Origin: Periplaneta americana
Lineage: Eukaryota; Arthropoda; Insecta; Blattodea; Blattidae
Direction: 5' to 3'
NCBI RefSeq assembly: GCF_040183065.1
Contig: NC_091119.1
Coordinates: 101,985,774 to 102,049,773 of the forward strand
Length of the DNA: 64,000 nucleotides
Positions 13,377 through 59,391 of this stretch are shown here, piece after piece (position 1 is the first letter of the stretch; each line of letters starts with the position of its first letter). The notes under the pieces were generated by a model. It ran no database searches. It was not told where the DNA came from and saw only the letters and a program-made list of their open reading frames with translations. The position numbers and the translations under genes are program-made.

Positions 13377-13455
13377 TCAATCAATCAATCCAATCAATCA
13401 GTCTTCTTAATGTATCCAGCTGTTTGCTGATAACATAAAGTCCACTGTAGTCTAT
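13377..13455 (-). repeat. short (TCAA)n-tailed retroelement, copy 1
   Basis: (tcaa)n followed by 'tcttcttaatgtatccagc' and 'cataaagtccact', matching the 75-bp insert at 18528. The simple repeat is at the left, so the element is read on the minus strand. It is intronic. Confidence 0.6.
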
Positions 13456-14548
13456 TCAGTTGTTTTTCACGAGAAATGAATATTTTGATCAGTGTTCACT
13501 ATAGATGCCTGTTGCTATAGTCCTGACGCTGTTATTTCCGGCGTGACTCTGCCTCTTTGCTTACGTCTTAGAAAGTGAAGGCTCTATAAAGTCTAGGTAG
13601 GTATTATCATTAGCCATTTTTGTTCTTACGTTGCCGAGCTACCATACGAGGAATCTATTTGCAGCACCGTTAAACATTATCATGTCGTAACTCCTATGAT
13701 AATAAATCAAACGCAATGTAATTCAGCAAATAATTGAGCAGCAAATAACGTCTTCGTGTGCTTTCTGCGAACGCCAACTAAAGAGCTAAAATGGCGGGCG
13801 ATTATATTAACTATTTATCGAGCCTTAAGAAATGAATCAGCGAATCACAATACGCACACGTTTAAATGTAGCTGACCTGCAACGCGATTGGCTGCCGGAA
13901 ATTAGAGCGACGGGACTTTAGTAGCCAGAGTTGGGGTGTAGTCAATATATACTGGAGGGCTGTGTCTTCTGCAACTGGTACTGATGATTTTAATTTACTT
14001 CTTTTGTGGTTTATGGATGGACAGTATAGAAGAATGTGTTCCAGATCTTCATCATGATTATTACACCACAGACAAGTAGGATTATCAGAAAAGGTTTCAA
14101 ATGTGGTGAAATGTATGTGGGGGGGGGAGGGGGAACCTGCTTCTTATTTTTATTGGAATTGCGATATTTTCATGCCTCTGCACATATGCTTTCTGTCATA
14201 GAGTCCATCCTCTTCATGTATTTTCTGAGTGATATCATCTGCCCCAGATTATTGATATCAAACTGATATTAACCATTTGGTGCCCACAAAGTATACACTC
14301 ATGATTTCTATGATAGAGCTCATTCTAATCATGTGTTTTCTGAGTTGTATTATATCCCCGGGATGTATGTTTAATTCTGTCAATATATAAATTCATGTAC
14401 TGGAGCCATTTCCTGTGTTAAATTTAACAAGGAAAACGAGATTTTGTCTTTCTTGCACTATTGATAAAGCACAGAGATGAGTGGATCATCACTCACGAAT
14501 ATGGTATCATAATTTTATTCTTTTAAATATAATTTATCATGTTTGTAG
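13456..14548. other. intronic DNA, unassigned
   Basis: Nothing recognised apart from a short G tract near 14120. Phrases such as 'ttttctgagt' recur at about 14219 and 14336. Confidence 0.4.
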
Positions 14549-14668
14549 GGACGCACATTCAACCTGGAGAAGAATGTGATGTGTGGCCGTCTTGTGTGTG
14601 ATGTGAAGATATCTGCCAAAGAGTTGATCCGCTCCAGGAGTTATGATTTGGGTGCACTCTGTGAGAAT
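14549..14668 (+). pseudogene. POLA1-like exon block 4
   Basis: Forty codons, fully open: NVMCGRLVCDVKISAKELIR then SYDLGAL, a signature of the alpha polymerase exonuclease-like domain. The acceptor is gttgtag-type (tttgtag) and the donor gtaaga at 14669. Both borders are in phase 0. Confidence 0.9.
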
Positions 14669-15281
14669 GTAAGACTGTTCACCAACACAATAATTAGTTG
14701 TTTAATGACTCTTTTCAATTGTAAAGACTGTATAGCTTAAGTGAAATGCTACATTTGGGGTAAATGTTCTTAATTTTTGCTTTCTCATTATACGGAATAT
14801 ACAGTGTTCGAAAATTTCTTGGTAATGCAAGTTTTAAACTTTCCTCATACTAGAAAAGTGGTTTTTGGCATACTGTCTACACTGATCTCATAAATTACCT
14901 ATATTGATTGGGTATTCATATTCAATATCTAAGACTCAGTTTGAGAGTGATGGATGCAAAACAATTTTTAGTAAAAGGTTAATCAACCTATTTTTGAAAT
15001 CAAAAATGCAGTGGCTCTCAACTTCAAGAATCATCAAATGGTTACCTCTGTAATTTTTTGTATTACCGTATTTTCTTGAATCCTACAAATTTTTATAATG
15101 TATTTCTGCTGGAGCATTAATCCATTGAAACTGAATTTACCTCATTTGACTTTATATTAAGATGTGCTACTAAAAAAATGTTTGCAATGGGAAAATAATG
15201 TAACAGCAAAATAGTTTTCGTTTGAAATAGATGGAGGCTCTTAAAAGTTCTGAGTACGATGCTGTATGTATTTGTAACCAG

Positions 15282-15465
15282 GTGTTGCACGTGAAAGAAG
15301 AAGAACAGGCTGAGGTGACCATTGATTAAGTGAAACGTCTGTATGGGGCATCACAGTCACTTCTGCAGCTCATCTCCTGCACTATGCAGGATGCTGCTTA
15401 CATCATCCGACTCATGTGTGAGCTCAACATGATGCCCCTTGCTCTTCAGATTACAAACATTGCTG
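15282..15465 (+). pseudogene. POLA1-like exon block 5 with premature stop
   Basis: It encodes VLHVKEEEQAEVTID, an in-frame TAA at 15327-15329, then VKRLYGASQSLLQLISCTMQ and LMCELNMMPLALQITNIAG. One base change from a sense codon would explain the TAA. The donor gtatgt at 15466 leaves phase 1, which the next block continues correctly. Confidence 0.9.
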
Positions 15466-15498
15466 GTATGTAGAGATCAAATCAGTGTGCTACATAAA

Positions 15499-16454
15499 GG
15501 TAAGGTCGCACGTCGCTACATTTGCTGTGCAACTTTTGTACTGCAGCTGTAAAAGTTGTGTGTCATGTTGGCACATAAACCAAAAGTAGCACGCTGCAGG
15601 CTACATTTCATGCTGCACAACCCGAGCACTGCAAAAGTTGCAACTGGAGGTTGCGAGTCTGTTCACACACAAGGCGCTACTTTTGCAGCCACAGTCTAGC
15701 TGCAGCTTTTCATCTCCATGTTGACTTTTCAATATACATTTTGTGGTTATGTTCGCATTAAAGTTTCGGGTTATGAAACTAATGCGATACCTTACTTACC
15801 TATTATTTGCTTTTCTGTCCTAACTAGTATTCAGAAATTGGCATTATTTTTACTTTAAAGTTATTAAAAAACGCCTTTATACTTAAATGATAACCAAGTA
15901 ACCAATGTTGGCAACTCTCCTGTTGGAAACCATGCTACGGAAAATTAAAAAAAAGGAATTATATCTTCAGTAAATATACTCTGACTGTGTTGTACATTTA
16001 GTAATTGTTACAAAGCATTTATTTTCATCACATTAAAATATATCCAAACAATAAAAAGTATCGTTGACACATTTGGGTGGCAACACTGGTTGCAACTGCT
16101 GCACAAGTTTCAACAAAATTGGTATAAAAAATGCTGCAGCTGCAACCTTGAGAACCCTGTTCATATATCGCTACTTTTAAGCTGCGCACAGCATGAAAAG
16201 GTAGCAGGCAGCAGGTTCGGCTTTGAAGCTGGGTACATGGTTCTAATGAAGTACATTGGTAGCAACATAAAACATGGGGGCATGAGATAGTTACTACTGT
16301 TATAAATTCACTTCAATTAAAGTCCCCAATTAAAAAAAAAGTTTGGCAGCCGCTACTTTTTGGATTGCATCATTGTTCACATATCACAGTACAAGAGTTG
16401 CGCAGTTTTTTGTACTGCAGCGCTGCAAAAGTAGCGACGTGTGACCGTACCTTA
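15499..16454. mobile_element. TIR element in POLA1-like intron
   Basis: The left end (taaggtcgcacgtcgctac, from 15501) is mirrored by the right end, which in reverse complement reads taaggtacggtcacacgtcg. The interior is rich in repeated 'gctgcaaaagtt/ gtactgcagc' phrases and has no transposase. It seems related to the piece at 35640-35905. The target duplication was not resolved. Confidence 0.7.
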
Positions 16455-16513
16455 ACTGATTATCTAATTGGGCATGAGGCAGAGAATTTAATTTGTGATG
16501 TAATCATACGCAG

Positions 16514-16849
16514 GTAATGTGATGTCACAAACACTGATGGGTGGACGCTCAGAGAGAAATGAATTCCTGCTGCTGCATGCCTTCACTGAAAAAAACTTCA
16601 TCGTACCTGACAAGTAGTAAGCCAAGGAGCAGGTGGACGAATTCGACATGGATGAATTAGCTGTTCAAAAGAAAGGACGGAGTGGAAAGAGGAAACCAGC
16701 ATACACAGGGGGTCTCGTGTTGGAGCCACGCAAGGGGTTCTGTGACAAACTGATCCTGCTCACTGTATCCCAGTATCATCCAGGAATACAACTTCTGCTT
16801 CACCACGATCAGTCTGGGAAAAGTGGCATCAAAAGGCAATGAGGATGAG
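16514..16849 (+). pseudogene. POLA1-like exon block 6, motif A deleted
   Basis: It encodes [25 protein letters not shown], then TAG-TAA (16615-16620), DEFDMDELAVQKKG, YTGGLVLEPRKGF and DKLILL. In the family the next residues are motif A, whose first aspartate binds the catalytic metal ions. Here the sequence jumps from ILL to LYPSIIQEYN in another frame (near 16762-16766), so that aspartate and its neighbours are deleted. The donor gtgtag follows at 16850. Confidence 0.9.
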
Positions 16850-17449
16850 GTGTAGTGTATCTCACAGAGAAAACTAGGATAAAGTTGTACCACTCTGAGG
16901 AACAATCCATTTTTATGAAGTGCCTCCTCCCCTTCCCCCCATTGGCAGAGCTCTTAACTTGTCATTATTATTCAATTTTTTTGACAGGAATTGATTACGA
17001 AAAATGTCACGAAGGTGATACATATTTTATTATTATTCAGCAGCTAGTAATCAAGCAAATTTACGTCCTAACCTCACTTAATTTATGTTGTCCTACAGGG
17101 TTATTACAAGATTCTCATTCTAATGAAGTCTTCCTGATAGCCTGGAAGTGTTGTATGACCTTTCTGCGCTATACAAGAATATTGAATTGTACTATAGTTA
17201 CTGTGCAGTAGTACTGTTGTAGTTGAGGACCCTACTATAAAAAGATAGAAAATAAAATACAATAAAATAGCGAATTGGTTCGTTGGAGAGGTGTGGGCAT
17301 AATATTTTTTCTGGAGTATTTGAGAGTTATTCAGAAGTCCATGAAACATTACAAAAATTCACCACTAATAACTAAGCACGGATACCAAATTTTATTATAC
17401 TGAAATAGAGGTAAACTAACCAAGTTTATTTATTTATTTATTTATTTTT

Positions 17450-17850
17450 TACATATTTCACAAATGCTCAATGTGTCGATTTTTGCAGATATGGCAAATA
17501 TCTGTGTGATAATCCATTTCTTCCTATGTGTATGTCTACGAGAATCACAGCTGTGGTGATACGTTTGCGAAGATCTTGAAGATTAGCGGGGAGTGGAAGC
17601 ACAAAGACAAAGCTCCGCAAGAGAAAGTCACACAGTTAAATCTGGGGACCAAGGTGGTCACTGAATTAACGTGTCATCTTGTCCCATGTGCTCTATCCAT
17701 CTTTGTGGTAAATTTTGATTGAGATATCCTCGCATGCCTTTTCAGTAATGAATTGGACGGCCGTCTTGTTCAAAGGTGTAATCATTACCCTGTCTTTATT
17801 CAGCTGTGGCATCATCCAGTTTTCCAACATGTCCATATAAATCCAGAATT
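17450..17850 (-). mobile_element. mariner-type transposase C-terminal fragment
   Basis: Read on the minus strand, decayed frames give FEQDGRP, GYLNQNLPQRWI, PPWSPDLT, CDFLL, LPANLQDLRKRITTAV and LSHRYLPYLQ. These are the hallmarks of the second half of a Tc1/mariner-superfamily transposase of the kind common in insects. Frameshifts and stops are frequent. No terminal repeats are seen. It is intronic. Confidence 0.8.
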
Positions 17851-18072
17851 TTTCATATCATTTCTTGATACTGTAGAAAACAGATGCTGACTTCTGGAAT
17901 TATTTTCGAAATCATCGCTGTACAATCATAATGGATGAGGTTCTTGCATATTTCAACACAAAATGACTGCTCACATTTACTGAATGCCATATTTGTTACT
18001 ACTGACCCCTGGTGGCAAAGCATGGTAACTATGCACGTGAACTGCATTTTTCTGTACTGAAATGTGTTACAG

Positions 18073-18213
18073 AATGAAATTCAAGTTGAACTTCCCAGCC
18101 CAGGACTGGAACCTGGGATCCTTCCAACAGAAATCCGCAAGTTGGTTGAGAGTAGACGTGAAGTCAAGAAGCTGATGAAAGCACCAGAGCTCTCATCGGA
18201 CTTGAAAATGCAG
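18073..18213 (+). pseudogene. POLA1-like exon block 7
   Basis: Forty-seven open codons: [20 protein letters not shown] then [14 protein letters not shown], matching the finger region between motifs A and B. The acceptor is ttacag and the donor gtgaga at 18214, both phase 0. Confidence 0.9.
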
Positions 18214-18527
18214 GTGAGAACCTGATGAACATGATTCTGTTGTGACTGATTTTTACTGAACTTGCACAATGTATAATGAATTACATTACTGTAAAATAAT
18301 ATTATTACTGGATACTGTTAATATTGGATACTAACACAGTTGTTATGATAGACTTTTTTTATAGATTTATAAATTCTCCTAAATTCCAATTAAAATTTTT
18401 ACAGGAAAAAAATATAGTGTCACGAAATTGACACATGTTTTTCAATTACAGTGAAACCTCTCCTTACGGACACCCCCAAGATACGGATACTCCTCATATA
18501 CAGACAGATTTTTATGTCCCAACTGAA

Positions 18528-18602
18528 TCAATCAATCAATCAATCTTCTTAATGTATCCAGCAGTTTGCTGACAACATAAAGTCCACTTTAGTCCACTGT
18601 AG
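18528..18602 (-). mobile_element. 75-bp (TCAA)n-tailed retroinsert, copy 2
   Basis: Bounded by an exact 15-bp duplication, tatgtcccaactgaa, at 18513-18527 and 18603-18617. It has the same sequence as the copy at 13377. It must be a short retroposed fragment, the tail end of a SINE or LINE, inserted into the pogo-like element. Confidence 0.88.
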
Positions 18603-19065
18603 TATGTCCCAACTGAAAAAATATAGAAATAATGATAAATTTAACTCTCGTTTACGGACACTCAGACACGGACACGGACAGCTGTTTCACAGTCCTACAG
18701 CTTGCTTTACCTCCTGACTGGGGACAGAACTTGGATTTCAAGACCTAATGTGTTACAAAAATGGAAAACTTGGTTTTGAGAACTGTACAGAAATTCCTTA
18801 ACATGAAGGAAGACAATAAGGGTCTTGTAGGCTATCCCTAGTTCAGCTAGCTGACCCTTGTTAGCTGGAAGCGGGTGGATAAACAAAGTCATAAAATTTA
18901 ACCTGTCTGATGGGTCCAGGTTTCCACGATCGTGAAATTGTATTCAACACATGATAAGGTTAGTAGGATTATTCTCTTCACTTCAGTCATTTGTTCGGTT
19001 TCGAGAGACATGGTACCTGAATGTAAAAGTTAAGTTGAAAACTGTAAATTACAATACTGTATAAC

Positions 19066-19159
19066 TAATTGATTAACTAGCGGACTTACTCGTGTTAATT
19101 ATGTAAGATTTGTGCGGCTTACATAATTAACATGAGTAAGTCCGCTAGTTAATCAATTA
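19066..19159. repeat. 42-bp-arm hairpin
   Basis: Arms 19066-19107 and 19118-19159 are complementary over 42 bp with a single difference (a G-T pair) and a 10-base loop, atttgtgcgg. It lies inside the pogo-like element. Confidence 0.92.
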
Positions 19160-20043
19160 ATTATATTCAAGTGTTAAAAGTAGTGTACGCAAGATTCAAA
19201 ATGGACTGGATAATTGTTGTTGACCTAGAATAAAATTGTATAGCACTGTACTGAATTTTTCTTTTTCGGACTTATCAGCTGTAGTTCAAAGTTGCAAGAA
19301 TTTAGTATAGTATATTATATTTAGAATTAAACTACAGTAATACATTTCATTTACAGCGTGAAGGGATACATAATGCATATTATAAATTTGCTGTAAGATT
19401 GGGGAGCCTCCCTCCCAATAAAGGACACCCCCCCAGATGCGGACAGATTGTTACGTCCCTTCGATGTCTGTAAATGAGAAGTTTCACTGTATACATTTTA
19501 TATTTTCATAACAGTTCAGTTCCTTTGTTATGTTTCAAATTATATTACCGCTTGTAGTTTATCTTCTTGGACTGTTTTTTGAAAGACATTCATAAATGAA
19601 ATCATTGACTATGCAATCAAATAAGATGAACTTTTATTTTCTATATTGTATGTAACAAGGAGCTGCTTTTCACTAAGAGTAGTGGCTATGCCTGAATTAG
19701 CTTGATGAGATTTGGGGAACCATTATAGAGTTTGACTAAGTTTGCAGCAAAAATGAGAAATAATTCTCCATATGATAATTAATTTCTCCGAGAGTAGGAT
19801 CTCTGGGGACTTTCTGTACAGCTGTCTTCATTTTATGCAAGAAACAAGAATAAAAAAAGTTTAATCTAATTTCGACTTCATCACAATTTGCTATTTTATT
19901 TTCTAACTTTTTGTAGTAGGGTTCTCAACTACTGGACAGTAACGTTTTTACTAAAAATTATTATATTAAATATAGAATTCAGTATTCTGTATTATTTTCG
20001 AAATACTGTGAAACTCAGTTGGTATTCAAACTGCCTGTTTCAG

Positions 20044-20143
20044 TATAATATTCGTCAGATGGCACTGAAGTTGACTGCCAATAGAATGTACAGTTGTCTG
20101 GGATTCTCATTCTACGTGAAGCCACTAGCATCACTAATCACAG
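20044..20143 (+). pseudogene. POLA1-like exon block 8 (motif B)
   Basis: It encodes [20 protein letters not shown] then [11 protein letters not shown]. Family motif B normally reads KLTANSMYG; here Ser is replaced by Arg and Gly by Ser, and two residues before FYVKPL are missing. The acceptor is tttcag and the donor gtgtgt at 20144, phase 1. Confidence 0.9.
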
Positions 20144-20752
20144 GTGTGTAGCATGTTTACCTTAACTTGATGACATGCAGAAAGAAACCAGTTCACGAAG
20201 TTTAAGCCGAACCAAATGTATAACTTTATTTCTTTACATTAATGTAATCTCTATGTCACCTTTTCTTATAGAATTGAACTGATATTTGTAAAAGTGTTTG
20301 ATATGAAATTTGGTTTAAGTTTCCTTTACATTTGTTGGTCTCTAGTCTTTCTTGCACAGATCCATTTATGCATACTACCCTTACAGAATGATGTCAGCAA
20401 CCCTACAAACATGCATCTAGTATCACATAATTGAACAATAGATGTGAGAATTCATTAATATATATTATGTTGCAATGAAAGCATCCAGTGAAAATAACTT
20501 TGTTAGGTTAATGTGACTAGAACTATAGTCAGTGATTAAACGACCTAAATTTCTCACTCATTTTTTTCGTATTGTATTTGACTACCAGTGTTGGATGAGT
20601 ATGTGTAAAATGCAATTAAGATTCACTGTGAACTGATGTACAGGTGCTTCTGAAAATGAACTGCAAAATGATTTGCTATGTTTATAGCAATTAAAATTTA
20701 ATTACCTTACCTTTTATAATTAAATGATCTGATTTATTTCTGCAGAATTATA
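20144..20752. other. intronic DNA, unassigned
   Basis: AT-rich DNA; nothing recognised. Confidence 0.4.
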
Positions 20753-21583
20753 CAGGGTATTTCAGAAGTAATGTTAAAAAATTAAGGATGAGAAGTAAAA
20801 ACGAAAAGAAGCAAAAAAGTTCCAGTAAACATAGGTTCGCAAATTAACCCTTTACGAGATAATGCCTTTTTTTTTGCTGCTTGGGACTGCCAGTGAACCG
20901 AGCACCTGGACATGGTTAAATACAAAATTCATGTTTTGTACTCTTCCTTCTAAGTGTGAGGTGATATATAAATAGACGATATCATAAACAGTGGATGGGC
21001 AATTGAGGATCTGTACCTAGATCACTGGATTTAAATTCTTTGGATTTTTGTGTGTGGGGTTATGCAAAAAGCCTTGTTTACACAATTGACATCACCACAC
21101 CTGAAGAATTGCAGCATCGGATTGTAGATGTCTTCCAGAAAATGAAGAATGGTCAAACTGCTTGAGCACATTCTTGGATCTTTGCGGAGAAAACTAGACA
21201 GATGCATTCAAGTGCATGGTCAGTATTTTGAATACCTGCTGTAAAATTATTCAGTATCATGTTCATACTGTACTGTATCTTGTTTACCTACAAACTTTAC
21301 TGTTGTTCAAACAAAAAAGTTTATTTTGTGTGTGTTTAATTAGATTTCTATGGTGTTGAAGCCAAAATTATGAATTTTATTGTCTCGTGATTGATAAATA
21401 AAATTGAATTATCATTGCTTTTGCTAGAATTAGTACTTAGTAATCAGCGGGCCCCAACCAGCACAAAATGGCATTATCTCATAAACAGTTAATTTGTGGA
21501 TCCATGTTTACTGGAATTTTTTGCTTCTCTTCGTTTTTACTTTGCATCCCTAAATTTTTTACCATCACTTTTGAAACATTCTG
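20753..21583 (+). mobile_element. Tc1/mariner element, internally deleted
   Basis: Long terminal inverted repeats of about 130 bp: the left starts cagggtatttcagaagtaat, the right reversed cagaatgtttcaaaagtgat. TA flanks at 20751-20752 and 21584-21585. Inside, on the + strand, remain transposase C-terminal phrases: SLDFCVWGYAKSLVYTIDIT, TPEELQHRIVDVFQKM, and in another frame SLRRKLDRCIQVHGQYFEYL. The N-terminal DNA-binding part and the first catalytic residues are deleted. It is nonautonomous. Confidence 0.9.
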
Positions 21584-21974
21584 TATATGGATATACTGTA
21601 TGTGGTATATGTGCAGTTAACACTAAATAATGGTTTCTGTAAAATTATCTTTAATATATCTTGGGAGTCAGTGTTCACAAAGTTTGTATCATTTCCAAAG
21701 CACATAGGATGGGTCTGTTCTATACAGGATTGTCAGATGTCTCAACATGCTTGGATTTTTATTTTGCATGAAAAGAGCTCCTTGTATTGAGAATTATTGT
21801 GGTAGAATATCGTAATATAAGTATGGAAACTTAATACTCCCTCTGTCCCATAATAATTGTCCGGTATGCTTTTATTTCTTGTCCCATAATAATTGTCCGA
21901 TGTCCATAATTTTACACTGACGTTAACATAGGAGCAAAATGAAACACATGAATGAGTAATATAACTGTATTACT

Positions 21975-22215
21975 CTAGAATCAGTGCAAAATTGTCACTC
22001 AATTAGCAAAAGAAAAAAATTATTAGTCCGGGATCTGTATAAATTGGCCAATCGTTGAGCCAAAAAAAGAACATGAATACTACTTGTACAACTTTATGGC
22101 TCCAGGATCAGTACAAATTGGCTAGTCAATGAGCCGAAAATAAATACTCCTAGGAGTGCAACTTTATTAACTCCAGGAGTAGTACAAATTGACCAAGAAG
22201 TGAAACAAAGAAAAA
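21975..22215. repeat. subterminal tandem repeats of the mariner
   Basis: About four diverged units of some 70 bp built on 'ggatcagtacaaattggc...tgagcc' followed by 'caactttat..ctcca'. They lie just inside the left terminal repeat of the element. Such repeats often serve as transposase binding sites; that role here is inferred. Confidence 0.7.
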
Positions 22216-22440
22216 CATTCTCCTACGAGTAAAGACGAAAAAACTGCCTGTTAGACCAGGAAGGTTGTCATTCTAACAGCTTGCCTAGAACCACAGACCT
22301 ATTGCTGCAGTGCTACTGTAGCCTCGTCGTAAATGTTTCGAGGACACTGCAAGCGAGATGGCAGGATGTTGAGGTGGTCCAGGTGCCCCTTTTGCATATG
22401 GGGAATCTTGTTGTTGTTCCCGTCATTGACTTTTATTATT

Positions 22441-23010
22441 TCAGTGAGATTGGACTCCATTGTTGAGCTTGTCGCGTGTCAGCTGAGAGAAAGCTGTTTC
22501 AATGGCGGCGATCAACTCCTCAATAGTTTGTGGAGCTGCCTGATGCTGGAGAGACTGAATTGCCCGGAAGTACCCCAGATCTAAAACATTCGTATTCAGA
22601 TTGTTTGGCGGTTGGCACACGAGTTCTAAAGTGATTCCACTGGCTGCTGCAGCGTCCATCCAGGTGCGGTCATTGGGAGCAATATGCAGACGCGCATTGT
22701 CCTGCTGAACTGACACCTGAATTCTCCCTGTGCGCGGTCCAGGAGGCCATTTTGCATTTATTGCTGGGATTAATTTGGTGATGGGCATGAATCCACTTTC
22801 CAAAGATTGCCTCCCCCGTTGCCAAATGCAGCGTGCTGTTCTTTTACTGACATGAAATTTCTCGGCCGCACCTGTTATGGCACCTTTCTTCACTATGTCA
22901 GCCATAGTGTTTTTCAACAAAAACTCCTATACTGCCTCCCGTTCACTGTCTGTAAGGTTCTTGCTACCCCTGTCATTCACTACCGCCAGTTGTGTTCCCA
23001 GAATGTTCAT
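22441..23010 (-). pseudogene. mariner transposase, internally deleted
   Basis: From an ATG at 23010 the frame gives NLTDSEREAV, an in-frame TAG, then EFLLKNTMADIV and the helix-turn-helix ITGAAEKFHVSKRTARCIW. It then jumps to VSVQQDNARLHI (second catalytic Asp), LELVCQPPNNLNTNVLDLGY, FRAIQSLQHQAAPQTIEELI. The QPPN..NVLDLGFFRAIQSLQ type block resembles plant-clade mariner transposases. In that block the usual SPDLN is NLNTN, so the third catalytic position also looks altered. The segment with the first catalytic Asp is missing. About 190 codons remain against the 350 or more usual for the family. Confidence 0.85.
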
Positions 23011-23365
23011 GTCTGTTCAAACGTACGTACTCACTGCAGGAGTATGCTCTACTAACGATTTCCAGCTTGCTTTGCTACAATTGTTTGTATATAGTGACAC
23101 ACCGGTGAGTTGAAAACCAATACCCACTTTCGGTAATCTTCTGGGTGATGTGTGTTGCTTGTCTCGATAAAATCACGTTATTGCTCTGCATAACCTTGTG
23201 CACTGATCTACAGCGCTTCTCCTCATGCGTGCACTTCTCATTTGCCCCGTCGTCTGTAATTACTATAATACCATTTCGGCATACTGGACAATTATTATGG
23301 GACAGAGGGAGTAGATTTTATTTTTTCTGATACGTACACATGCACTCACTTGTGTGCACAGGCGC

Positions 23366-23388
23366 GCACACACACACACACACACACG
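23366..23388. repeat. (CA)n microsatellite
   Basis: A run of CA dinucleotides just outside the mariner element. Confidence 0.95.
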
Positions 23389-23936
23389 TATACTGTGTAG
23401 GATTGACAATCATTCTAATACCCTAATGAAATTCTAGAAACATTTTTTCCTTCTTAAAGAATTCACTAATAGACTTGTTGCTAATGTGTGCTTGGTATAT
23501 TGTGGTCAGTTCATTAGTTCTTTTAGCCTCTGTGTTACCACTATTCAGAATTCTGGTAGCAAAGTGAATGAGAACATATGTTTCTCTCTACCTTGTACTG
23601 TCTAAAATTATTGCACATGCATGAGAATTGTTAATGCTTGGCAATCTGATCTACATTCAAACAGTCATCAATTTATCCACACATACCAGTTGTCACAACA
23701 ATAACATTCTAATTTAAATACAGTGTTGCTAGAAAGTTTAGGGACACCTTATAATTCTTATGAAATGCTGTCATGGCCTTAAATTATTAGAGAAACTAAC
23801 ATGTTTATAACTGTTGATTAACAATAGCAAAGACTAATTTTTAGTGCAGTTTCGGTATTTATATGATGACTGTTAGTCCTTATCGAGAATTTATAAGTTT
23901 TTCAAACAAAATAAATAGTCTTACATTTTCAGTATT

Positions 23937-24245
23937 TTAGTAAATCTACTCTGTGAAAAGATTTATTAAATCTACATACTTAGACTTCAACAAACAAAAT
24001 TTGATATCACAATCTCAAGGGAAAAAATGGAAGTTACTGCATCATAATCCACAGTTAATTCCCGATTTACCACGAAAATCGTCTGTAGCTGCATTTAGAT
24101 TGGCAACAGGCCATGACTGTTTGGCCAAACACCTGCATAGCTCAAAATCTGTGCTTCATTGGCTGACCATGATAATATATTTGAAAAATATTGGAGTGCA
24201 AGGGGTCAAATGACTTTGTCAAACGCCTGGCATTAGAAAACAACA
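23937..24245 (+). mobile_element. LINE 3' end nested in foldback arm
   Basis: Bounded by a 14-bp duplication, acattttcagtatt, at 23923-23936 and 24246-24259. The + strand encodes KKWKLLHHNPQLIPDLPRKS, VAAFRLATGHDCLAKHLH, then after a shift LADHDNIFEKYWSARGQMTL, the C-terminal end of a LINE ORF2 with an internal deletion where zinc-type cysteines are expected. It ends in an A-rich tail. Confidence 0.88.
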
Positions 24246-24275
24246 ACATTTTCAGTATTAAAGTTGAAAATGAAT

Positions 24276-24530
24276 ACTTACTTACTGGCTTTTAAGGAAC
24301 CCGGAGGTTCATTGCCGCCCTCACATAAGCCTGCCATTGGTCCTGTCCTGAGCAAGATTAATCCAGTCTCTATCATCATATCCCACCTCCCCCAAATCCA
24401 TTTGAATACTATCTTCCCATCTACGTCTCGGCCTCTCCAAAGGTCTTTTTCCCTCCGTCCTCCCAACTAACACACTATATGCATTTCTGGATTCGCCCAT
24501 ACGTGCTACATGCCCTACCCATTTCAAACA
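24276..24530 (-). mobile_element. LINE 3' end, copy 3, nested in foldback arm
   Basis: Third copy of the 1260-1862 family, reversed, with the (tact)n tail on the left and coding end WINLAQDRT, RWEDSIQMDLGEVGYDDRDW and HVARMGESRNAYSVLVGR. A 12-bp duplication, ttgaaaatgaat, borders it at 24264-24275 and 24531-24542. Confidence 0.92.
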
Positions 24531-25233
24531 TTGAAAATGAATGAGTAACCTAATTAATTGGTGTACTATTCTCAACTGTTGCTGGATGATGTAGGATATA
24601 TTACTCTTTAAATTAGTAAAGCTCAAATATTTGTAAAAAATTTCTTTGTGAATGTCCTAGCACTTTCTAAGGTTTGAAGTTTTAAAAAATGGGGACTTTT
24701 GTTAATAGTCGGTTCTTCTGTGACTGCTGAATAGAGACAGTACAGTAATAGTTATGAGGTTTGCACAGCTGCGCCTCCCTACCACTGTAATCCCAAGGAA
24801 CGCAGCTCCATTCAAGAGTTACAGATGAATCAACCAATAACAAAATGTCCCCATTTTTTTTTAAACTTAAAACTTTAGAAAGTGCTAGGACATTCACAAA
24901 GAAAAGTATTTTTTACAAATAGTTGATCTTTACTAATTTAAAGAGTAATATATCCTACATCATCCATCAACAATTGAGAATTATGCACCGATTAGTTATT
25001 CATTCATTTTCAACTTTAATGCTGAAAATGTAAGACTGTTTATTTTGTTTGAAAAACTTATAAATTCTCGATAAGGACGACAGTCCTTATTATAAGGATT
25101 ATAAGGTAACAGAATTATAAGGTGTCCCTAAACTTTGTAAAAACACCATATACTTGTAGTCAGGTACAGTTCTGTAAGAAAGGAAAGGAAGTTTATGCTT
25201 TGTTATTTTTCATTTGTTTTTTCTCGTTTTAAG

Positions 25234-25373
25234 CAAAAGGCAGAGAAATATTAATGAACACGAAGGACCTCGTGGAGAAGATGAATTTTCAAGTTATTTA
25301 TGGTGACACAGATTCGATCATGATCAATACAAACTGTCTGGATTACGATCAAATCTTCAAGATAGGCCACAAG
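25234..25373 (+). pseudogene. POLA1-like exon block 9 (motif C)
   Basis: It encodes [20 protein letters not shown], then [13 protein letters not shown] and [11 protein letters not shown]. Motif C with its two metal-binding aspartates is intact, and the block is fully open. The acceptor is ttttaag and the donor gtatgt at 25374. The incoming phase fits block 8. No later exon is recognised. Confidence 0.9.
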
Positions 25374-27089
25374 GTATGTACAATCATCTCATTAAGACTT
25401 AGATATACAACATATTTTGGAATGCGTAAATTAAACTATGATTGTAGGAGATACTTTCATCAATTAAGTGACACTTGGAAAAGTGTTGAATATGCAAGGT
25501 AATTCGAACAAACCATGTTATATGAACACTGTAAAAATCCATATGTTGTACTATGAATCAAGCTTGTAACATGTTTTCATCTTAATAAATAGTGTGGCCA
25601 GACTAAGGAGAGTGAGATTCTGCTGAAACGTGAAATGCAGAGAGGTCAGGTCTGGTGACATCAGTTGTCGATAAGTAGCCTAACAACCATTTTGTGATGT
25701 TACATTGGAAGAGGTCCCATTAGAGACCAGGCGATGAATGTATTATCAACATGATGGTGTCTCCCTTCACTTTCCTCGTGTAGTAGCAGTTCACTTACGA
25801 AAGTACAGACTTGAGAACAATTAGTTACTGATATTGTGAACACTACTGTGCTTATCAACTAGACTGAGCTATGAAATGCTATGCTAGTGATTCACATCTG
25901 TGCCACAAAGTGCATGAAGTGGAAGGAGGAATATTTGAAAATGTCCTTTCAAACTGAAATTTGCTTAGTTTCTGTTTAATACCAGTACAGTATTTTTTAA
26001 TAATCTTTCCATGGATGAATATATAATAGGATGCGAAACTTACTGAGTTTCCCGTAACACATGCTAGAGGTGCTAATGTAGAAACTGATCTTGCTGCCAT
26101 TTGTTGGACGGTGGAAAAATTATTACATCTAGCAACGCACCTGGTGACGAAAATGTTAAACTATGCAGAAAATATTCATTCTCTTCCACCCTCATCGATA
26201 TTCTCAACTAACCCACTTTAAAATAAAACATTTACATTTTTATTTCTCACACCATCTTCCACTGAAAATTCTTACCAGAGCCAGCAGGAAGAGTAAAGAG
26301 ATGATCTTTTTTACACTACCCAATTAAAATATAACCAAACAGAGACAGAAAATAAAGCAAAAGGTTAGATAATTGGGATTGTATTCTTTGGGTATTTAGT
26401 GTACAGCGCAATGGAAATTCTGCAAAAACTACTTACATAGTTCAATTTATTATATTACTATTACTTTACAATACATTCAACAACACTATTTTTACAACGT
26501 CCATAAACATCACTGTTTAACATACAGTGCTATGCACACATTTAATATCACTTTATGTCCACTCATTAGCAAGTTTCTGGCTGCCATCTTGTCTTCTCTA
26601 GCATCGTCTGTTCGTCTCGAACGAACAGATAAATAAAGAACTCTGGGTAATCTACCCAACACGTAGTTCTAATGTTCACCACACACTACGTCGGGCGCTG
26701 ATCATCTTATTTGAACCCCCTTCTGTCAGATGGTGCTGACTGCAGTTTCGCATCGTATTAAATATTCATCATGATCTTTCTGTATAGTTTTAATTGATTC
26801 CCATTAATTCTCTTCACAACTGCTTCTACTTTCTTAGGATTGGAATAGCTGTAGTTCCTTAAATATTCATCATCGTATGTATGTTCATGTGACAGTTTTT
26901 CTCACAATGACCTATAAACTGATTCCTAATGCATGGGTCATGAGTCATCCTGCATAGTACAACCTCTCTTTTACACTTCTCAAGGGACCAGGGGAAACAT
27001 GGTGTAAATTGAGGGAAAGTGCAAATCCAAGGAAATGATTTTATATAAAATTACAGTAACTTACAGATTTCATAATAACTCACTTACAG
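25374..27089. other. unassigned DNA after last polymerase exon
   Basis: I looked for the next POLA1 exon, which would start about KSEVNKLYK, and did not find it. No repeat or RNA gene is recognised. A cagtggcgtgcgg phrase at 27090 resembles a hAT terminus and may mark the left end of the next element. Confidence 0.45.
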
Positions 27090-27830
27090 CAGTGGCGTGC
27101 GGATCCTATTGCATTAGGGTAGGCTCTTCATGTTTGCATGCTACATAGGTATACAACTTACAATATCTCGAACATATTGATAATAATTTTATATTTGATA
27201 TAATTTTAGTGAGTTCTGACATCAAACCAGAGCAGCAGCCAGAAGGAGGGTAAGAAAACGGAAACCTTCGGAAACTAATGATAAAATAAATTAGTAATTA
27301 AATAAATCATACCTTATTTACTTGAAGGTGAACTCCATTTTGCGTCCCTTTTTAGAAAACTCCTCAATGACATCGCTGTGGAATGTAGGGGATTTTCGGA
27401 TTTCTTTCAGCTTTTTTCTTCTCCATGGACATCAAGGCTAGACTGCTCAATCTTTCTTGCCCTTGAGTTGATCTTTGAAATGATTTAATCTGCTTAAGGG
27501 CAGAAAATGACCTCTCAGTAGATGCAGATGTGCTTGGTATGGTCAAGACCAGTAGGGTCAATTTGTACAATTCGACAAATGCGGTGTGGAGTTGTTTTGA
27601 TTTTAAATGTGTTACCAGTTCATGAGGGTATTTTCCACGAAACTCCTCCATTGAATATAGGACTGTCAGTTCATTTTTTAGACGGACTATGTCAAACATT
27701 GCACTGTACTTTACATTCAGCGCATCCAGGGCGGAATTAGGAAAATTTAATTTATAAGACTGAAATTTGGTTGGATCAAGCAATGAAATAAATTCCAAAT
27801 GAGAGAGATTTCCAAACCTATCTGTAATAT

Positions 27831-28088
27831 CGTCGTGTGAATGTAAGAACTAGGTAACTTGATTTTTCATATTTTGTGACATTGCCTATTTACTTATTTA
27901 TTGCACTAAGGAATAAGTCTCGTTTTCATTCACCTATTTGTTATATTGGAAAATAGATGTTACTGGTATCGTTCAATCAGGTACCAAGTTCTTGCATTAC
28001 ATTTTGTGCGATTTTTGCTATGCTATAAAAGAGCTAACTAAAAACGCAAATTTCGAGTTACCTAATTCTTGCATTCACACGACGATAT
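27831..28088. mobile_element. 258-bp MITE inside the hAT gene
   Basis: Inverted ends: cgtcgtgtgaatgtaagaac (27831 on) and, reversed at the right, cgtcgtgtgaatgcaagaat. The flanking bases atat occur on both sides. Without it the hAT frame reads through DNVTNHITDRFGNLSHLEF, which fits the family, so the ends and a 4-bp (or shorter) duplication are well placed. Confidence 0.8.
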
Positions 28089-29064
28089 GGTTTGTCACAT
28101 TGTCTATTATTTCAAAAAATATTCTCCTGTATTTTATGACATCATTTTCTTTTTCGCTGCACTTCTTCACATTCGACTTCATTACAAATGCATCAAATCT
28201 GTCTCTCTCGTGTAGAACAATACGTTTTGTTTCATTAATTTTTTCTACACAATACAGAATATCCAAATGCTTCGTTTGAAGAATTTTGTACAGAATATCA
28301 GTGTATGCAAAGATCTTTGATAACACATTTAGAAGAAATTTGGTCTCAAACTCTGAAAGGAAAGACAAATATCCACGTGCAAGAGCAACAGTTTCACTTT
28401 CCCAGTCTGATGAGTTGTTGAGTATATTTTTAAAAAAGTCCACCAGCAATTCACGGTTCTCCTTTACAATATTGACTATTCTGGAAGAGAAATTCCATCT
28501 TGTGGGTGCATTTCTTGGAATTATTCTGTTAGAATATTCAGTAAGAGCATGCGCGCATTTTGTAGACTTGGAGAAGAAGCTACTTACTCCATTCAATGTT
28601 TGAAAAAAGATCCGGCACTCCTTAATACTCATAGCTGACTGAGATAAGACTAGATTTAGGACATGACTGAAACAATGAACAAATAGAGCTCTAGGATAAA
28701 TGTCTTGAACTTTGGTTGTAAGTCCATTTATTTCTCCAACCATCACTGCCGCACCGTCATATGTTTGACCAACTAATTTGTCTCTGATATCATAAGATGC
28801 CACTATGTCCATTACATGATTAAATAAACCATTAGCGGATCTATCTGCACTCACATCAATGAAGGAAATAAACGTTTCTTGAACCTGTGCTGTCTGGTCA
28901 TGGACATACCTGAGAATGGTGGATAGTTGTGATTTGTTGCTTACATTGGATGTTTCATCTAAAATAATTGCAACATGCTGGGCCATGGAAATGTCATTCT
29001 TAATAGATTCCATCAACACACCACTGATAGCAGTTATCAGGTCATTTTGAATTCTGTTCGATGT

Positions 29065-29300
29065 TAAATGTTAAAATGTTATGTTTTATTTAACGACGCT
29101 CGTAACTGCAGAGGTTATATCAGCGTCGCCGGATGTGCCGGAATTTTGTCCCGCAGGAGTTCTTTTACATGCCAGTAAATCTACTGACATGAGGCTGTTG
29201 CATTTAAGCACACTTAAATGCCATCGACCAGGCCCGGGATCGAACCCGCATCCTTGGGCATAGAAGGCCAGCGCTATATCAACTCGCCAACCAGGTCGAC
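29065..29300 (-). mobile_element. SINE-B inserted in the hAT gene
   Basis: Exact 15-bp duplication aattctgttcgatgt at 29050-29064 and 29301-29315. The tRNA-like head, on the minus strand, has a B box gggttcgatcccgg near 29235 and an A-box-like part near 29285. The body includes 'catttaagtgtgctt' and the end 'cgtcgttaaataaaa'. A second copy on the + strand is at 38331. Confidence 0.92.
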
Positions 29301-29955
29301 AATTCTGTTCGATGTGCCCTTAAATGTTGTAGACGACTCTAGATGCTCTCGAAGAGTAGTGTAGTAGCTGCTCAACAAATGTAAAAGTTCTATATAGTTA
29401 CCTTTGTTAAGTGAATCTTCACTTTCGCCATGCCCTCTGAATGGCAGTTCTTGCATGGCTAAGAAGCACATTGCGTCAATTAGGCATTTCAATATTTCTC
29501 TGTTCTTCTTCACCATTTCATTGTGACATGCCACATCCAATTTCAATTGTTGATCAAGTTGGATGTCAATACGAACACTTCCAAAACAAGAAAGCTGAAC
29601 AACCGAATGCAAATGACACTGCGATCATTCGTGTTTGACAATGGCATTGCTGAAATTATTTAAATTTAAATAACCCTCTTTGTTCCACACACTTTGTTCG
29701 TTACAAAATAATAAGTATGGCCAACAAAATAATTTATTAAGATGACAGCATCCGATTACCCAATTAGTTTTCACATATTGGTTCACATTGAAATAACGTA
29801 AATATTCTCTACTCTTTTCTTTATGTAAAAATTTTAAGTTCGGAAGCGCCAGCACTGGTCTTCCCCCACAGTTACAATTTCAACTTTTTCGCTAAATGAT
29901 CTACAACCGAAAGGCTTTTTAAAAATCTGTTCAATTATACAGTGATCTTCTGCCA

Positions 29956-31899
29956 TATTACAACAATATCGCACTAGTTATACCTCACTTTGTTCAAATA
30001 AACTCTATAACACACTCACTTTACCACCAGAAGTTCAAATAAACACTATAATACAGTAATTTCATCACCAAAGCGCTTTCAATAGCGCCTACCAGCCTAG
30101 CGTATTATGACAATGGGCAAGACACGTAAATCAGGGCGCATGCGCCAGCTGTTTTAATGTACTGACTATGAAGGGAAACACTATGCTCACTGCAGGGCCG
30201 GGTAGGCTGTGGTGCCGGGAGCCCAACTCTCCCCTACTTCTTTGTATAAACTATAGTTGAAAATGTGAAAAACACTCAGTTTTTAAGTTAATGTCTGCAA
30301 CTTTGAGTGACTGTCCTTGAGCTTCATTTTAATATGGCTATTACAAATGCTAGTTGCAGTGAAATTGCTGTTACTTACAATCGAAAGGCATGCTAGTGAG
30401 TATCATAGGAATGCGTGGGATAAAAACATCTTCTCCTTTTGTTTTGCCAGTTAATACCTATTGCCATTTCTATTACTACGTTTTGAATGAGTTTTTTTCA
30501 CGCCAATTCTTGTTCCGCTGCATAATTTTGGTGGATCAATATTTCGCAATAGTACAAATTGGTGATTCATATTAAGTATTAAATTATATGGTGGCAATCT
30601 TTGTGGTTTCAAAGAATTCAAGAATTCATTTGGATAAAACACAGTCTGGTCACTATCTACAACTGCATCGAGAAATTCGCAATATTATTATGGTCCTGGA
30701 CTGCGTAAAGATACTTATTGCATGAATTATCTAGATTTTGGCCTTCATGATGTATATCAACAATGTTATTCAGTTTCGTGTTATAATTTCCATGGCCTCG
30801 TGAAATTCGATATTGAATACAACAGACAATAATAAAAAACAATTGACTATAGAAGATTGCATTTTAATATTATAAATGAATGTTTAATCGTATTTATTTC
30901 TATTTTTTATTTTTTAATTAACTTATGGTCCATTTGCACAATTTTAATGTGGCCTATGTTCTTCTCCTGGTTATGAAGGTTAAATGTGCAAACTTTGGCA
31001 CATATTGGTCAATGCATATAGATTTGTATAGAGAACATACACACATACATACATACCCACATTCAATTTTATATATTAAGAAGATTACTATAATTATTCG
31101 TTGTTTCTAAAATTAATTTTCCCTAATATATTTCTTTCCACTTTAGTAATTCCCAAAGGAAACTCAGCGAGTCAAAGAATATACAAGTCAAAAGACTTTT
31201 ATCTACTAACTGACAATAAATTAAGAATAAATATCATGCAAAAGAAAACAACAACAAAAATTGTAATAGAAGTACAAACAACCATGTAAAATGAATGGCC
31301 ATGCTTTAACTTTTTAGGAATGAGATAGAAAGCGAAACTCAAATGTCATGTAAAGGACACACAGATTAAGACTTTAAAAACAGTGAAATAACAAATCAAA
31401 GTTATTCATTTTACAGTAGAGAATTACAATAATTTAGTGCAAAGTAAATTTACAAATACATATGAATACATGCGTAAGTTAATTGTAAATACTTTTCTTA
31501 ATCTTACTCCTGTTTTTTGTTACTTCATCAGAAGGAAAAGTAAATATCGCTACTAAGTTCCCTTTTGGTAATTGAATTTGCAGCCAGGCATACAATACTT
31601 TGCCATTTTATTCAGGCCTAATGTATTAAAAAATAAAACAAGTGATATTGATGAGTGCAGTGAAATTTGACTCTCGAATTAGCTCTAAGATATCGCAATT
31701 TGTACCACCCCGCTTATCTTATAATGTTAGAATATCTTTTGTTTGTGAAAAACTTTGAGATATGAGACTGTAACATACCCTAAGATTCACCTTTCAGTTT
31801 CCCCCTCCCCCGAAATTTAATAATCTGAGAAACGTGATCTATCATGTTTAAGATAACGTAAACTCTTTTTTCAATGGTTGAAATTCTCAGTATGTATAT
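29956..31899. other. unassigned intergenic DNA
   Basis: No gene seen. The 30100-30240 part is GC-richer and may be the 5' part of the hAT element. A short (ACAT)n tract lies near 31038. Confidence 0.4.
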
Positions 31900-39512: not shown

Positions 39513-39588
39513 CTCTCCGGCAACGGGATTTGAACCCGGGTTTTCAGCTCTACGTGCTGATGCTTTATCCACTAAGCCACACCGGATT
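39513..39588 (-). repeat. tRNA-like SINE head (anticodon loop reads GTA)
   Basis: On the minus strand a cloverleaf can be drawn: tggcttagtggataaagc D arm, anticodon stem tcagc/gctga with loop acgtaga, T arm with gggttcaaatcccg. Position 33 is C and not T, and it sits in a hAT element with extra 3' sequence, so I call it a SINE head, not a tRNA gene. Confidence 0.65.
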
Positions 39589-40129: not shown

Positions 40130-42025
40130 AGTATGGTATATAATGACAGCTGTCAAAATCAGTAATTTATCGCAGTTTTGAGAAGAGCTCGATCTCAGTA
40201 GACTGTGTCTCAGCCTAGGCCCTAGATCATGGGTCTCAGCCTAGATCATATATACTAACAGATAGCTCTTTTATATAGGCTTTAGGGTTTGCAGTCGAGG
40301 CCGGCTTGATGTAGTTCTATAATCGTCAACAGATGGCACAATGACCAACACCATCACGAGACACGAACTCTAAATCGATTATTTCTTGCTTACGAGATAA
40401 TCTCGGTATGTACTGTCGACAACTGATGACCATGGATAAATATTATTGGCCTATATGACCTTGGCAACTTTGCAAGTTCGGAACATAGACAAGTTCGGAA
40501 CGAGGCAGCTATTTATAGTTGTCACGTGGGCGAAGCGAAGAGATAAGATAAAGTACGCCTTTGTATTGAATATAATTCAGAATCTCTGCCAGGCAAAGCA
40601 ATATGTAGACAATGTTGTAATGGACCGTATCGGGCAGCAATAATATGATTCGTTATCTCTTCTGTTTTTATATATTTGTCGTGAATATTATTTATATTAT
40701 CAACTGAGTATAACATAATTTATCCGTTAATTGATATTTTATTAATGATAAATCCAAAGAACAATGGAAAATAAGGGACTGAAAAATAAATGAAATAAGA
40801 GAATTTGACGTTCATGATTATAATGTTGTCGGAGTTTTATTATACTTTACTTTGAATTATTTTAACTCGCACCACAAAAGCGTATGAAAATTAATGTTAA
40901 CATTACCTATTTAGTTATGATAGTAGTATATTGGAAAATTTGTGCATATAGCCCGATTACAATATATAAATAATACTATCCTAACCTAAGCAATAGTAGT
41001 CTTGTTTATTTCATACATGTTCGTATAATTATACAAACACAAGAATAATCTAGTTTGCAGCCTGTGATGTCTCGTTTACAGTATTATATAATATACATAT
41101 TACGATATTTACTAGGTACTTTAACAATATATAGTTAATAATATTATAAAGTATACAGGCCTAATCCATTACCAAGGAATACCCCTTCCCTCACATTTTC
41201 AATACTGTTTATCTCAAAAGGCCTTCACACATTATTAGACACTGGATTAAAATAGTCATGTTGATGTAGGCCTACAACATTACATTTTTTTGTCACTACT
41301 CCTGATCCCATTCTAACAGTTTCAGGTTTTGTAATTTGTAACAATACTATCAATACTGATGGGTCATTCCATAGTGACACACATAACATTTTCGAAGTAA
41401 CTATGATCGTCACAGGATATTTAATTAAATACTTAAGAGTTTATGAAAGAGACATCACTGTCTTTTAACGTAAGCATTCCAAAATATAAACAGAAAATCT
41501 TAATGAAAAGGAATAATCAATAATGTAAAAAATATGAAATATTATATGGTGTGACATATGAACATTTTCTTGCCACTTAATTTATTACCAAAATGGAAAA
41601 TGTTCATATTATTGTGCCAAATGACATAAATAGTTGTTTTCCAAAGAATTAAGACACTTGTGTAGTACATGTAACTGCTGACGTACTTTAATAAAAATAA
41701 CAGTGCCATTAACAAATAAAATATTACGAATTATATCGTGACACACGAACATTTCTGCCAAGTTGATAACTATTTTTTTCAGATGCATATCGAGATTTAT
41801 ACACAGTGTCTACAGTTCTTACTAAAATACACATTCAGATTTAAAATGTCCTTGGTTATTTACAACCATATGTAGTGATATCTCCTGTGTAATATCATGT
41901 GATGAATACACCAATATAGGCTATCTACTTTTCCTCCCATTTGTAGTACTTTCCTTTGTTGAACATCACGGAAACTTTAAATTCTCCACCACAAGCTTTT
42001 GTAACTTCCTCTGCTTATCTGACGT
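40130..42025. other. unassigned intergenic DNA, one diverged tandem array
   Basis: Between 41370 and 41765 a unit of about 183 bp recurs three times (agtgacacacataacatttt at 41373; gtgtgacatatgaacatttt near 41553; gtgacacacgaacatttctg near 41740). No genes are seen. Confidence 0.5.
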
Positions 42026-47715: not shown

Positions 47716-48049
47716 ATATATTTCAAGGGAGAAAACAAGTGGTGGGGTGCATGGCCAAGAAAAAAATTACCATGACAGCACTGACCAAACCTAACCTGTT
47801 ACAGACTCATGTATGCAAGGTGAAGAAGCTGAGTATGAAGGAAACTACCTCAGCGCTAATCAAGATTTTCAGGTATATCTCCCTGCAAAGTTGATTTGAA
47901 TAATTTCTAGGGAAAAATTGTTCCGGGGCCGGGCATCGAACCTGGGATCTTTGGTTTAACGTACCAACGCTCTACCAACTGAGCTACCCGGGAACTCTAC
48001 CCGGCACCGATATATTTCAAGGGAGAAAACAAGGGGTGGGGTACATGGC
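47716..48049. repeat. 40-bp direct repeats flanking a tRNA-like unit
   Basis: The 40-bp stretch from 47716 (atatatttcaagggagaaaa...) recurs at 48010-48049 with about two differences, 294 bp apart. Between them is a tRNA-like sequence. It is too long for a usual retroelement target duplication, so a local tandem duplication is as likely. Confidence 0.7.
47920..47995 (-). repeat. tRNA-like sequence (anticodon loop reads GTT)
   Basis: Minus strand: gttcccgggtagctcagttg start, D arm gctc...gagc, anticodon stem ttggt/accaa with loop acgttaa, T loop ttcgatg, and a 3' ccggaac that pairs with the 5' end apart from one base. It has near-complete cloverleaf pairing but C at position 33, so a SINE head or tRNA pseudogene is more likely than a working tRNA gene. 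Confidence 0.55.
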
Positions 48050-51966: not shown

Positions 51967-53126
51967 TTTTGGAGTTACTGTTGCATTATGTTTTAGTTTG
52001 TTACTGAAATGAATGGTCGTGTTAATTTTTTGTGTAACTAGGCCTACCATGGTTTGTCTGCCTGTGTGGCTTCTGTGTTTGTCTTATATTTTGTTTTATT
52101 AAGTCAGTGATCTGAATATTTATTGATGAGGCAGGGTTGGACGTTATGGCTGCTTTCGCAAGAGAGTCTGCAATCTCATTACCTTGTATGCTTTTATGTC
52201 CCGGTATCCAAATTAATTTTATTTTGTTCTCCTTTCCTATGTTATATATAACTGTTTGATGTTTATTACTATCCAGGGGGGTCTTCGCAGAAAGGGCATT
52301 ATTTTTTATTTTTTGTAATGCACTCAGTGAATCACGAATATGAGTATAGCTTTTCCTGTTAGGTGCTTTGCTGAGATAGGACCTGCCGAATTGCAAATAA
52401 TTCTGCTCTGCAGATGGATGACTGTTTGTGGAGTTTGATTTTCCCTCTACCTGCTGTTGTTGTATTTACAAATGCTGCACCCATCCCCATGTCAGATTTG
52501 GATCCACAGTGTAAATCTGCACTTTGTTGGGCTCCTGTTCTTCCATGTTGGTTATAAATTCTCAGAATCGTTGTCCCGTATTTGTCTCTTGTTTATTGAA
52601 GGTTGTGGTGTCTGTATGTATGCTTTTTTGGAAAACCTCATACTGAATGCAATACAGTGGAAAGCGAGGAAAGATTGGACAATGTAGAGTGCGGTAATAT
52701 TCTGTAAAAGTTTGGATTATTTGGGGAATTTGATATGGTATAGGATGTTCGCTGTTTTGGGTTAAGTGTGTGATTCCTTTGAGCTTGTTGTATATTGGCC
52801 TGTGGCATGCTAACTTTCTCCTGTGATGTAACGACTGGTAGTTTATTGTCTTAGTACAGAAAGGGTATGTGGTTTGCCACTTATACCCAGGATTTGTTTT
52901 GCTACCTGGTAGTGGATTGAATTTAGTTGTGCTTCTATTTGGGCCTGAGGCTTTGGTAATATGGCCATGGTGTAGTCTTGTAGTGCTATCAAGAAGTTGT
53001 TGTATAGTAGGTGAAATACCATAGGGTGATTTCCCCAATATCTGCTGATCATATACTTGAATATTATTGCTCTCCGTTTTAATTTCTGAAGGAGGTTTGA
53101 GTAATGTGTTTTTCCAGAGAAGTTAC
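51967..53126 (-). pseudogene. LINE RT end and RNase H domain
   Basis: From 53100 down: RT thumb-like region (SPTIQQLLDSTTRLHHGHIT) and, at 52022-52396, the RNase H domain with SYTHIRDSLSALQKIKNNAL and KIKLIWIPGHKSIQGNEIAD. DS and D in these blocks are catalytic RNase H positions. There are at least two frame breaks. It continues the RT piece at 55869-56970. Confidence 0.85.
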
Positions 53127-53574
53127 ATATGGGCCGTAAGAATAAAGTTGAGCATATCCTTTTACTCTATTATTTTGAAGGATGTGCTTCAGATTTTAAT
53201 AATAAAATGCAGAGCACAACCTTCTCCTCCTGATGACGCAACAGGAAAAGAGCACTTGCTTCACAGGAAGAAGCATTTGCTTGGAGAGCAACCTCTTGCT
53301 TCAAAATTAGAAAAAATGTATGAATAAAGTGAAGCATATCCTTCGATTCAGAAGCATATCCTTCTAAAAAGTGAAGTCTGGTCAGGAGCAGACTCATCTC
53401 TGTGACGGTTGAATTACCAGTCGTATTACGACGTGAAAAGTACTACAAATTATGGTGGTGTGCTGTTAGGGAGCAGTATAAGAGTTTATATACACTTCAT
53501 GAAGAAAATGACCTATGGATTAACCCATTTTCTGGAAGAAACAAGGGAGAAGAGTAGGGGCATTCTCGGAAATA

Positions 53575-54045: not shown

Positions 54046-54156
54046 TATTTTATTTATTATTTATTTTTTGCAGTTTATGGTCGATCCGAGATTCTAATCA
54101 GGTATTGCAGAAGAGGTGGTTATACATGGCACCACTATGAGTAAAACAGTTATTTT

Positions 54157-59345: not shown

Positions 59346-59391
<46 letters not shown>

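Follow-up and report, generated by a model that had tools for sequence, protein, structure and literature searches.

Elements of the PlantMar group are described in excerpts of PMC7325037 as DD39D mariners of 2-6 kb with short terminal inverted repeats, whose hosts are plants and, in a few cases, oomycetes; in the data that those excerpts cover, no further return to non-plant hosts was seen. DD39D/Guest elements are listed for bees in portions of PMC8472432, where a table of that paper gives DD39D a copy number of 3, with no intact copy, in the Apoidea. Stowaways are MITEs, small elements of less than 500 bp with the consensus end CTCCCTCCRT (excerpts of PMC1925063), and the non-autonomous forms found in carrot are thought to be mobilised in trans by DD39D mariners (excerpts of PMC6881990). 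For bamboo, partial text of PMC6696609 describes Ppmar2, which resides in a plant host and transposes in yeast assays. Repeats in the bee Frieseomelitta varia carry the label TcMar-Stowaway, as a repeat-masker class only (67 copies, 15,985 bp; excerpts of PMC7268684).

The element that we describe here lies in a stretch of 64,000 nucleotides of Periplaneta americana DNA, hereafter called the window. It is very probably a dead copy, with an internal deletion, of a Tc1/mariner transposon of the plant-type DD39D (Guest/PlantMar) kind, with the history that we propose below. An earlier note, made from the letters of the window, had marked out a 1.5-kb element flanked by TA on both sides, with termini like those of plant Stowaways and their mariner partners. 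Both observations hold. The element measures 1475 bp, its inverted ends agree at 97% and its limits are matched by two empty sites elsewhere in the genome, and the mask CTCCCTYYSKYMC, given for the terminal inverted repeats of carrot Stowaway MITEs and Dcmar mariners in excerpts of PMC6881990, fits both ends and nowhere else in the window. When the TA is included, positions 21835-21869 and 23279-23313 form inverted repeats of 35 nt with 97% complementarity (Table 1). Likewise, CTCCCTCTGTCCCATAATAA is found within the window only at the two element ends when up to three mismatches are allowed, the expected number being 0. The CTCCCTC terminal inverted repeat and the TA duplication, which are features of the family, are both present.

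Comparison with the described systems reveals likenesses and differences. By eye, the cockroach element matches 15 of the first 16 letters, TA included, of the bamboo Ppmar2NA-TIR1 end, TACTCCCTC.GTCCCA in partial text of PMC6696609. In contrast to Stowaway MITEs, which stay below 500 bp in the excerpts of PMC1925063, it extends over 1475 bp and carries a coding remnant, and so exceeds their size limit. The PlantMar elements in the excerpts of PMC7325037 live in plants and oomycetes, whereas the host here is an animal. Like the cockroach element, the DD39D/Guest (GT) element of Lepidotrigona ventralis hoosana has an insect host, an incomplete transposase and a beginning that reads CTCCC; however, it is 2381 bp long, and DD39D has a copy number of 3 in the Apoidea, whereas in the cockroach a deletion form of 1.5 kb accounts for about 31 insertion events by the flank test, in addition to diverged lineages, a comparison made by description only (excerpts of PMC8472432). 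Because a DD39D element with CTCCC ends is already reported from a bee in this source, the cockroach case adds another animal host, one with more copies and lineages, and an insect clade combining DD39D and CTCCC ends may exist, judging from the same excerpts. Our literature searches found no paper that names TcMar-Stowaway together with both insect and cockroach, and DD39D occurs in none of the 12 papers listed out of 2,138 for it with cockroaches and termites, which does not in itself prove absence. Wang et al. are said to have recorded, in 2021, a small number of DD39D elements in animals.

Across the cockroach genome, the exact 28-nt end together with its TA occurs 227 times (121 forward, 106 reverse), and a reversed control sequence 0 times. 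Among 100 of these 227 places, 32 pairs of ends face each other and span 1270-1494 bp. All 38 copies that are complete at both ends are flanked by TA on either side (49 copies compared, 11 of them incomplete).

Table 1. Features of the element and its surroundings, in window positions.
Feature	Positions	Strand	Remarks
Non-autonomous mariner, very probably DD39D (Guest/PlantMar-type), 1475 bp	21837..23311	- (coding strand)	
TA target duplication, left	21835..21836		single TA in two empty sites
TA target duplication, right	23312..23313		single TA in two empty sites
Terminal inverted repeat, 33 nt, CTCCCTCTGTCCCATAATAATTGTCC...	21837..21869	+	
Terminal inverted repeat, other end	23279..23311	-	1/33 mismatch
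Subterminal second copy of TGTCCCATAATAATTGTCC, complementary to far end	21880..21898	+	inverted-repeat comparison
161-aa open frame, transposase remnant	22444..22926	-	in-frame TAG before it
DUF7769 (PF24964) match, frame residues 2-44	22795..22923	-	E 2.1e-5, 24.6 bits
Second catalytic Asp (QQDNA), residue 76	22699..22701	-	
Third catalytic Asp (NVLDLGYF), residue 116	22579..22581	-	39 after second
Junction of 618-nt internal deletion (GGATT/CATGC)	22789..22790	-	CAT on both sides in L069
Larger repeated stretch holding the element	13421..30232	.	main pieces match C12, C15, C22 at 94-98%

The peptides quoted in the earlier note do occur in the 161-aa frame, which occupies nearly the range given there (22441-22920), and its assignment of them to the plant DD39D type, as opposed to the usual insect mariners, is borne out by two features. 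First, the spacing of the last two catalytic acids, which it had proposed to measure, is 39 residues, as the DD39D family requires, whereas an ordinary mariner from the same genome (L078) has a spacing of 34. At these two positions, D is present in 46 and 47 of the 49 copies, respectively. Second, the N-terminus resembles DUF7769, which we take to be a mark of plant DD39D transposases. The window frame alone scores below the 27-bit cut-off of this family, but it reaches 38.5 bits when the preceding TAG is read through, and the same N-terminal domain scores 41.2 bits in the longer relative L069 and 42 bits in the L071 type. Pfam describes no function for DUF7769, and no mention of it was found in the literature searched. 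The ordinary mariner L078 matches Transposase_1, DDE_3 and HTH_48, and has no DUF7769 match at E 0.1; conversely, neither the window frame nor the proteins of the longer relatives have a Pfam match to Transposase_1 or DDE_3. Sequence comparison with solved structures matched no transposase. The D of SPDLN, which is lost in the window copy, was considered as the third acid and dropped, because a count as in Mos1 places this acid in VLDLG, in agreement with the alignment with L078, and VLDLG was kept.

The window copy itself lacks the first catalytic D and the second helix-turn-helix (HTH) region, and its membership of DD39D follows from the ends, shared sequence and deletion that tie it to the L069 type. 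L069 (C12:82.76 Mb) is a decayed element of 2089 bp end to end with TA on both sides. Its best stretch of 967 nt shows 87% identity with the window copy, and it is a diverged relative and not the direct parent. Relative to L069, the window copy is missing 618 nt, and the same deletion is common to all 49 copies compared. In L069 this segment encodes the first catalytic D, in HVDEKWFY, as well as the second HTH, such that HVDEKWF, DNA and NVLDLG stand in register with a mariner and the full DDD triad is seen at the level of the family. A five-row profile of cockroach proteins, four of whose rows were joined across frames, could be aligned to L078 across 302 columns, and all three acids fell into register (E 1e-4, at a probability of only 57.5%). 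The bamboo comparison, which covers the 22-aa DNA-binding domain and the terminal inverted repeat given in partial text of PMC6696609, showed identity of the second HTH to Ppmar2 at 12 of 22 positions for L069, 11 for L071 and L079, and 9 for L075. As controls, L078 reached 6 at best and the six frames of the window 8 at best, and Ppmar1 against Ppmar2 gave 10 of 22; the 5-7 of 22 positions shared by the cockroach proteins with the Ppmar1 domain are background.

In the search for full-length genomic relatives that the note had proposed, the 2089-bp L069 was recovered in a decayed state, and no intact transposase was present among 93 matches (the best 150 of 204 candidates were scored, so that these counts are lower bounds). 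The three closest copies (C12:82.76, C12:86.90 and C3:59.44 Mb) all contain stops or frameshifts, and stops and frameshifts break all of L069, L073 and L074. Since no intact transposase was found, the mobilising protein is something that we infer. A genome search with DUF7769 gave 247 first-look candidates, with 84 matches among 150 scored, and one with Transposase_1 gave 19,038 first-look candidates, of which 150 were scored; ordinary mariners look far commoner than the DUF7769 type in this genome. BLASTN matched 28 of 30 DUF7769 loci (L039-L068) to the window element, and the remaining two (L040 and L062) coincide in place with L071 and L070, which have frames that read as relatives. Judged by sequence, L071/L070 and L075/L079 seem to represent additional lineages of DD39D-type element, the L071 and L075 readings being 43% and 36% identical to L069 in the alignment. 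By eye, L071 has E at the third position and a shorter spacing, and the third-acid region of L075 is scrambled, so that DD39D is read directly in the window and L069 type and would be an extrapolation for the others. The L075 piece, which is without the DUF7769 part, matches no family. Genome copies are 60-69% like the query, and others are 32-48% like it, 12 of these on C5:57.82-58.40 Mb. In this region (G000:C5:57824594-58400639) the twelve diverged DD39D-type matches (32-47%) lie on one strand at distances of 17-102 kb, as if a tandemly duplicated block contained an old copy.

Plant-like ends and transposase domains are also what a recent horizontal transfer from a plant to the cockroach would leave behind. 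However, several diverged DD39D-type lineages are present in the same genome and all those read are broken, which favours long residence or several old entries, and we consider a recent transfer unlikely. Searches with one peptide pattern for each of the viral and prokaryote contig sets returned no relative.

We compared 49 copies after removal of repeats of the same place. Partial or interrupted examples were dropped (L027, L036 and L072, of which L072 coincides in place with L039), and L047/L069, L073 and L074 were set aside as longer copies; these places come from the best-scoring searches and represent a sample and not a census. Seven full-length copies, including that of the window, are 98.6-100% identical to the window copy and are located on several contigs, as might be expected if the element had transposed by itself recently or were still active, and a recent burst was our first reading of these identities. 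This reading was dropped after comparison of the flanks. All seven near-identical copies share both 1.5-kb flanks at 97.8-99.9% (one flank of L007 aligns in two pieces, a short one of 70-78 nt at 93-95% and a longer one of 1.4 kb at 98-99%), and a second close group of 12 copies likewise shares both flanks, which means that larger repeats were copied and not the element by itself. By contrast, when 500-bp flanks were tested, 30 of the 49 places lacked any partner with both flanks in common. These partnerless copies stand at K2P 0.0253-0.0453 (mean 0.0339) from their majority sequence, the window copy stands at 0.0334 from the same majority, and the 30 fit one older burst. Recent or present activity is therefore a very improbable source of the seven copies. 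One partnerless copy, L057, is probably the same insertion as that of the window: it has one flank in common with L007 at 92%, and in the matching C12 repeat the left flank and the initial 382 nt of the element are found at a distance of about 2.5 kb. Counting 29 places and one event for each of the two groups, there were about 31 insertion events. The closest pair with different surroundings, L031 and L032 (C11:91343160 and C11:91388400), lies 45 kb apart in opposite orientation and differs by 1.1%, with no shared flank found.

The larger repeat that holds the window element also provides sites without it. A 19.9-kb query around the element, for which 3 of 40,412 first-look candidates were scored, identified C15:147.08 Mb and C22:2.22 Mb, where the left flank ends at 21836 and the right flank begins at 23312 with an overlap of two bases. 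These empty sites read TTAATA-GATT and the window reads TTAATA-element-TAGATT. A single TA with no footprint fits a site that was never occupied, and the two empty sites show the window element to be one clean insertion. The same larger repeat contains hAT-type remnants on the minus strand (27367-29070), with a 331-aa frame carrying DUF4371 and a 161-aa frame carrying a hAT dimerisation region.

Elsewhere in the window, another large repeat begins at 40238-40240 and runs beyond 49000 (95-98% over up to 8.8 kb), with five of eight scored places sharing the left boundary within 3 bases. On the minus strand are a 255-aa open frame with an ISXO2-like (IS1595/Merlin-type) transposase domain (61783-62547; PF12762, E 8.3e-14), frames that by eye resemble a non-LTR retrotransposon (52025-60189; gag-like CCHC and RT/RNase H-like pieces), and ARAGORN predictions of tRNA-Tyr (gta) at 39515-39586 and tRNA-Asn (gtt) at 47920-47993, which may belong to SINEs. 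The earlier note had also spoken of insect mariners nearby, but no other mariner frame came up when the window's frames of at least 60 aa were put through a simple motif scan, although strongly decayed ones could escape it.

It could be argued that the 161-aa frame has been kept as a repressor or a domesticated protein, given that it is open in many copies and retains the DUF7769 part, and that a 243-aa frame without a stop exists at C7:69.93 Mb. However, private substitutions among the 49 copies are spread evenly over codon positions (65/51/54, p 0.38) and are about as dense within the frame (0.352 per site) as outside it (0.354 and 0.405), and 44 of the 49 copies have an in-frame TAG ahead of the frame, with TAA there in one other. 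Selection leaves no sign in the frame, which evolves neutrally, and retention for a host function is exceedingly improbable. Nor is there support for the window copy being more than a remnant: it is a deletion derivative with a neutral frame and no first catalytic D. The chance that the element is an ordinary DD34D insect mariner with convergent ends is practically negligible: although a Tc1/mariner-type DDD domain and a TA target would suit it, the element shows neither the 34-residue spacing nor the Transposase_1/HTH_48 matches of DD34D, having a spacing of 39, DUF7769 in place of HTH_48 and no Pfam match to Transposase_1 or DDE_3.

The history that we favour for the dead DD39D copy would begin with an autonomous ancestor of about 2.1 kb, which, judging from homology and the decayed L069, encoded a transposase that combined DUF7769 at its N-terminus with a second HTH and a catalytic domain of the DD39D type. 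On the same grounds, this protein would have bound the CTCCCTC ends and inserted the element at TA. One copy then lost the 618 nt, probably through faulty gap repair at the CAT microhomology. A DD39D transposase would then have mobilised the defective form, now seen in its many copies, in trans during a single burst that dates back about 3% of divergence. The two empty sites document that the window copy inserted at a TA within the larger repeat, and it is evident from the shared flanks that this repeat later took the element to seven known places.

A general caution follows from these observations: transposon copies that are nearly identical need not signal activity, as they can have hitchhiked within larger repeats. 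For the family, PlantMar is called confined to plants and a few oomycetes in excerpts of PMC7325037, yet a few decayed copies are reported from bees in excerpts of PMC8472432. With several diverged lineages and about 31 insertion events present in a single cockroach genome, both the direction and the age of transfer can be put to the test. Because several anciently diverged lineages occur in this one genome, plant-type DD39D mariners might be long-term residents of animals, a tentative reading to which we give somewhat less than even weight. If so, the notion of a one-way switch to plants may be wrong, and animals may have served as a reservoir or a source.
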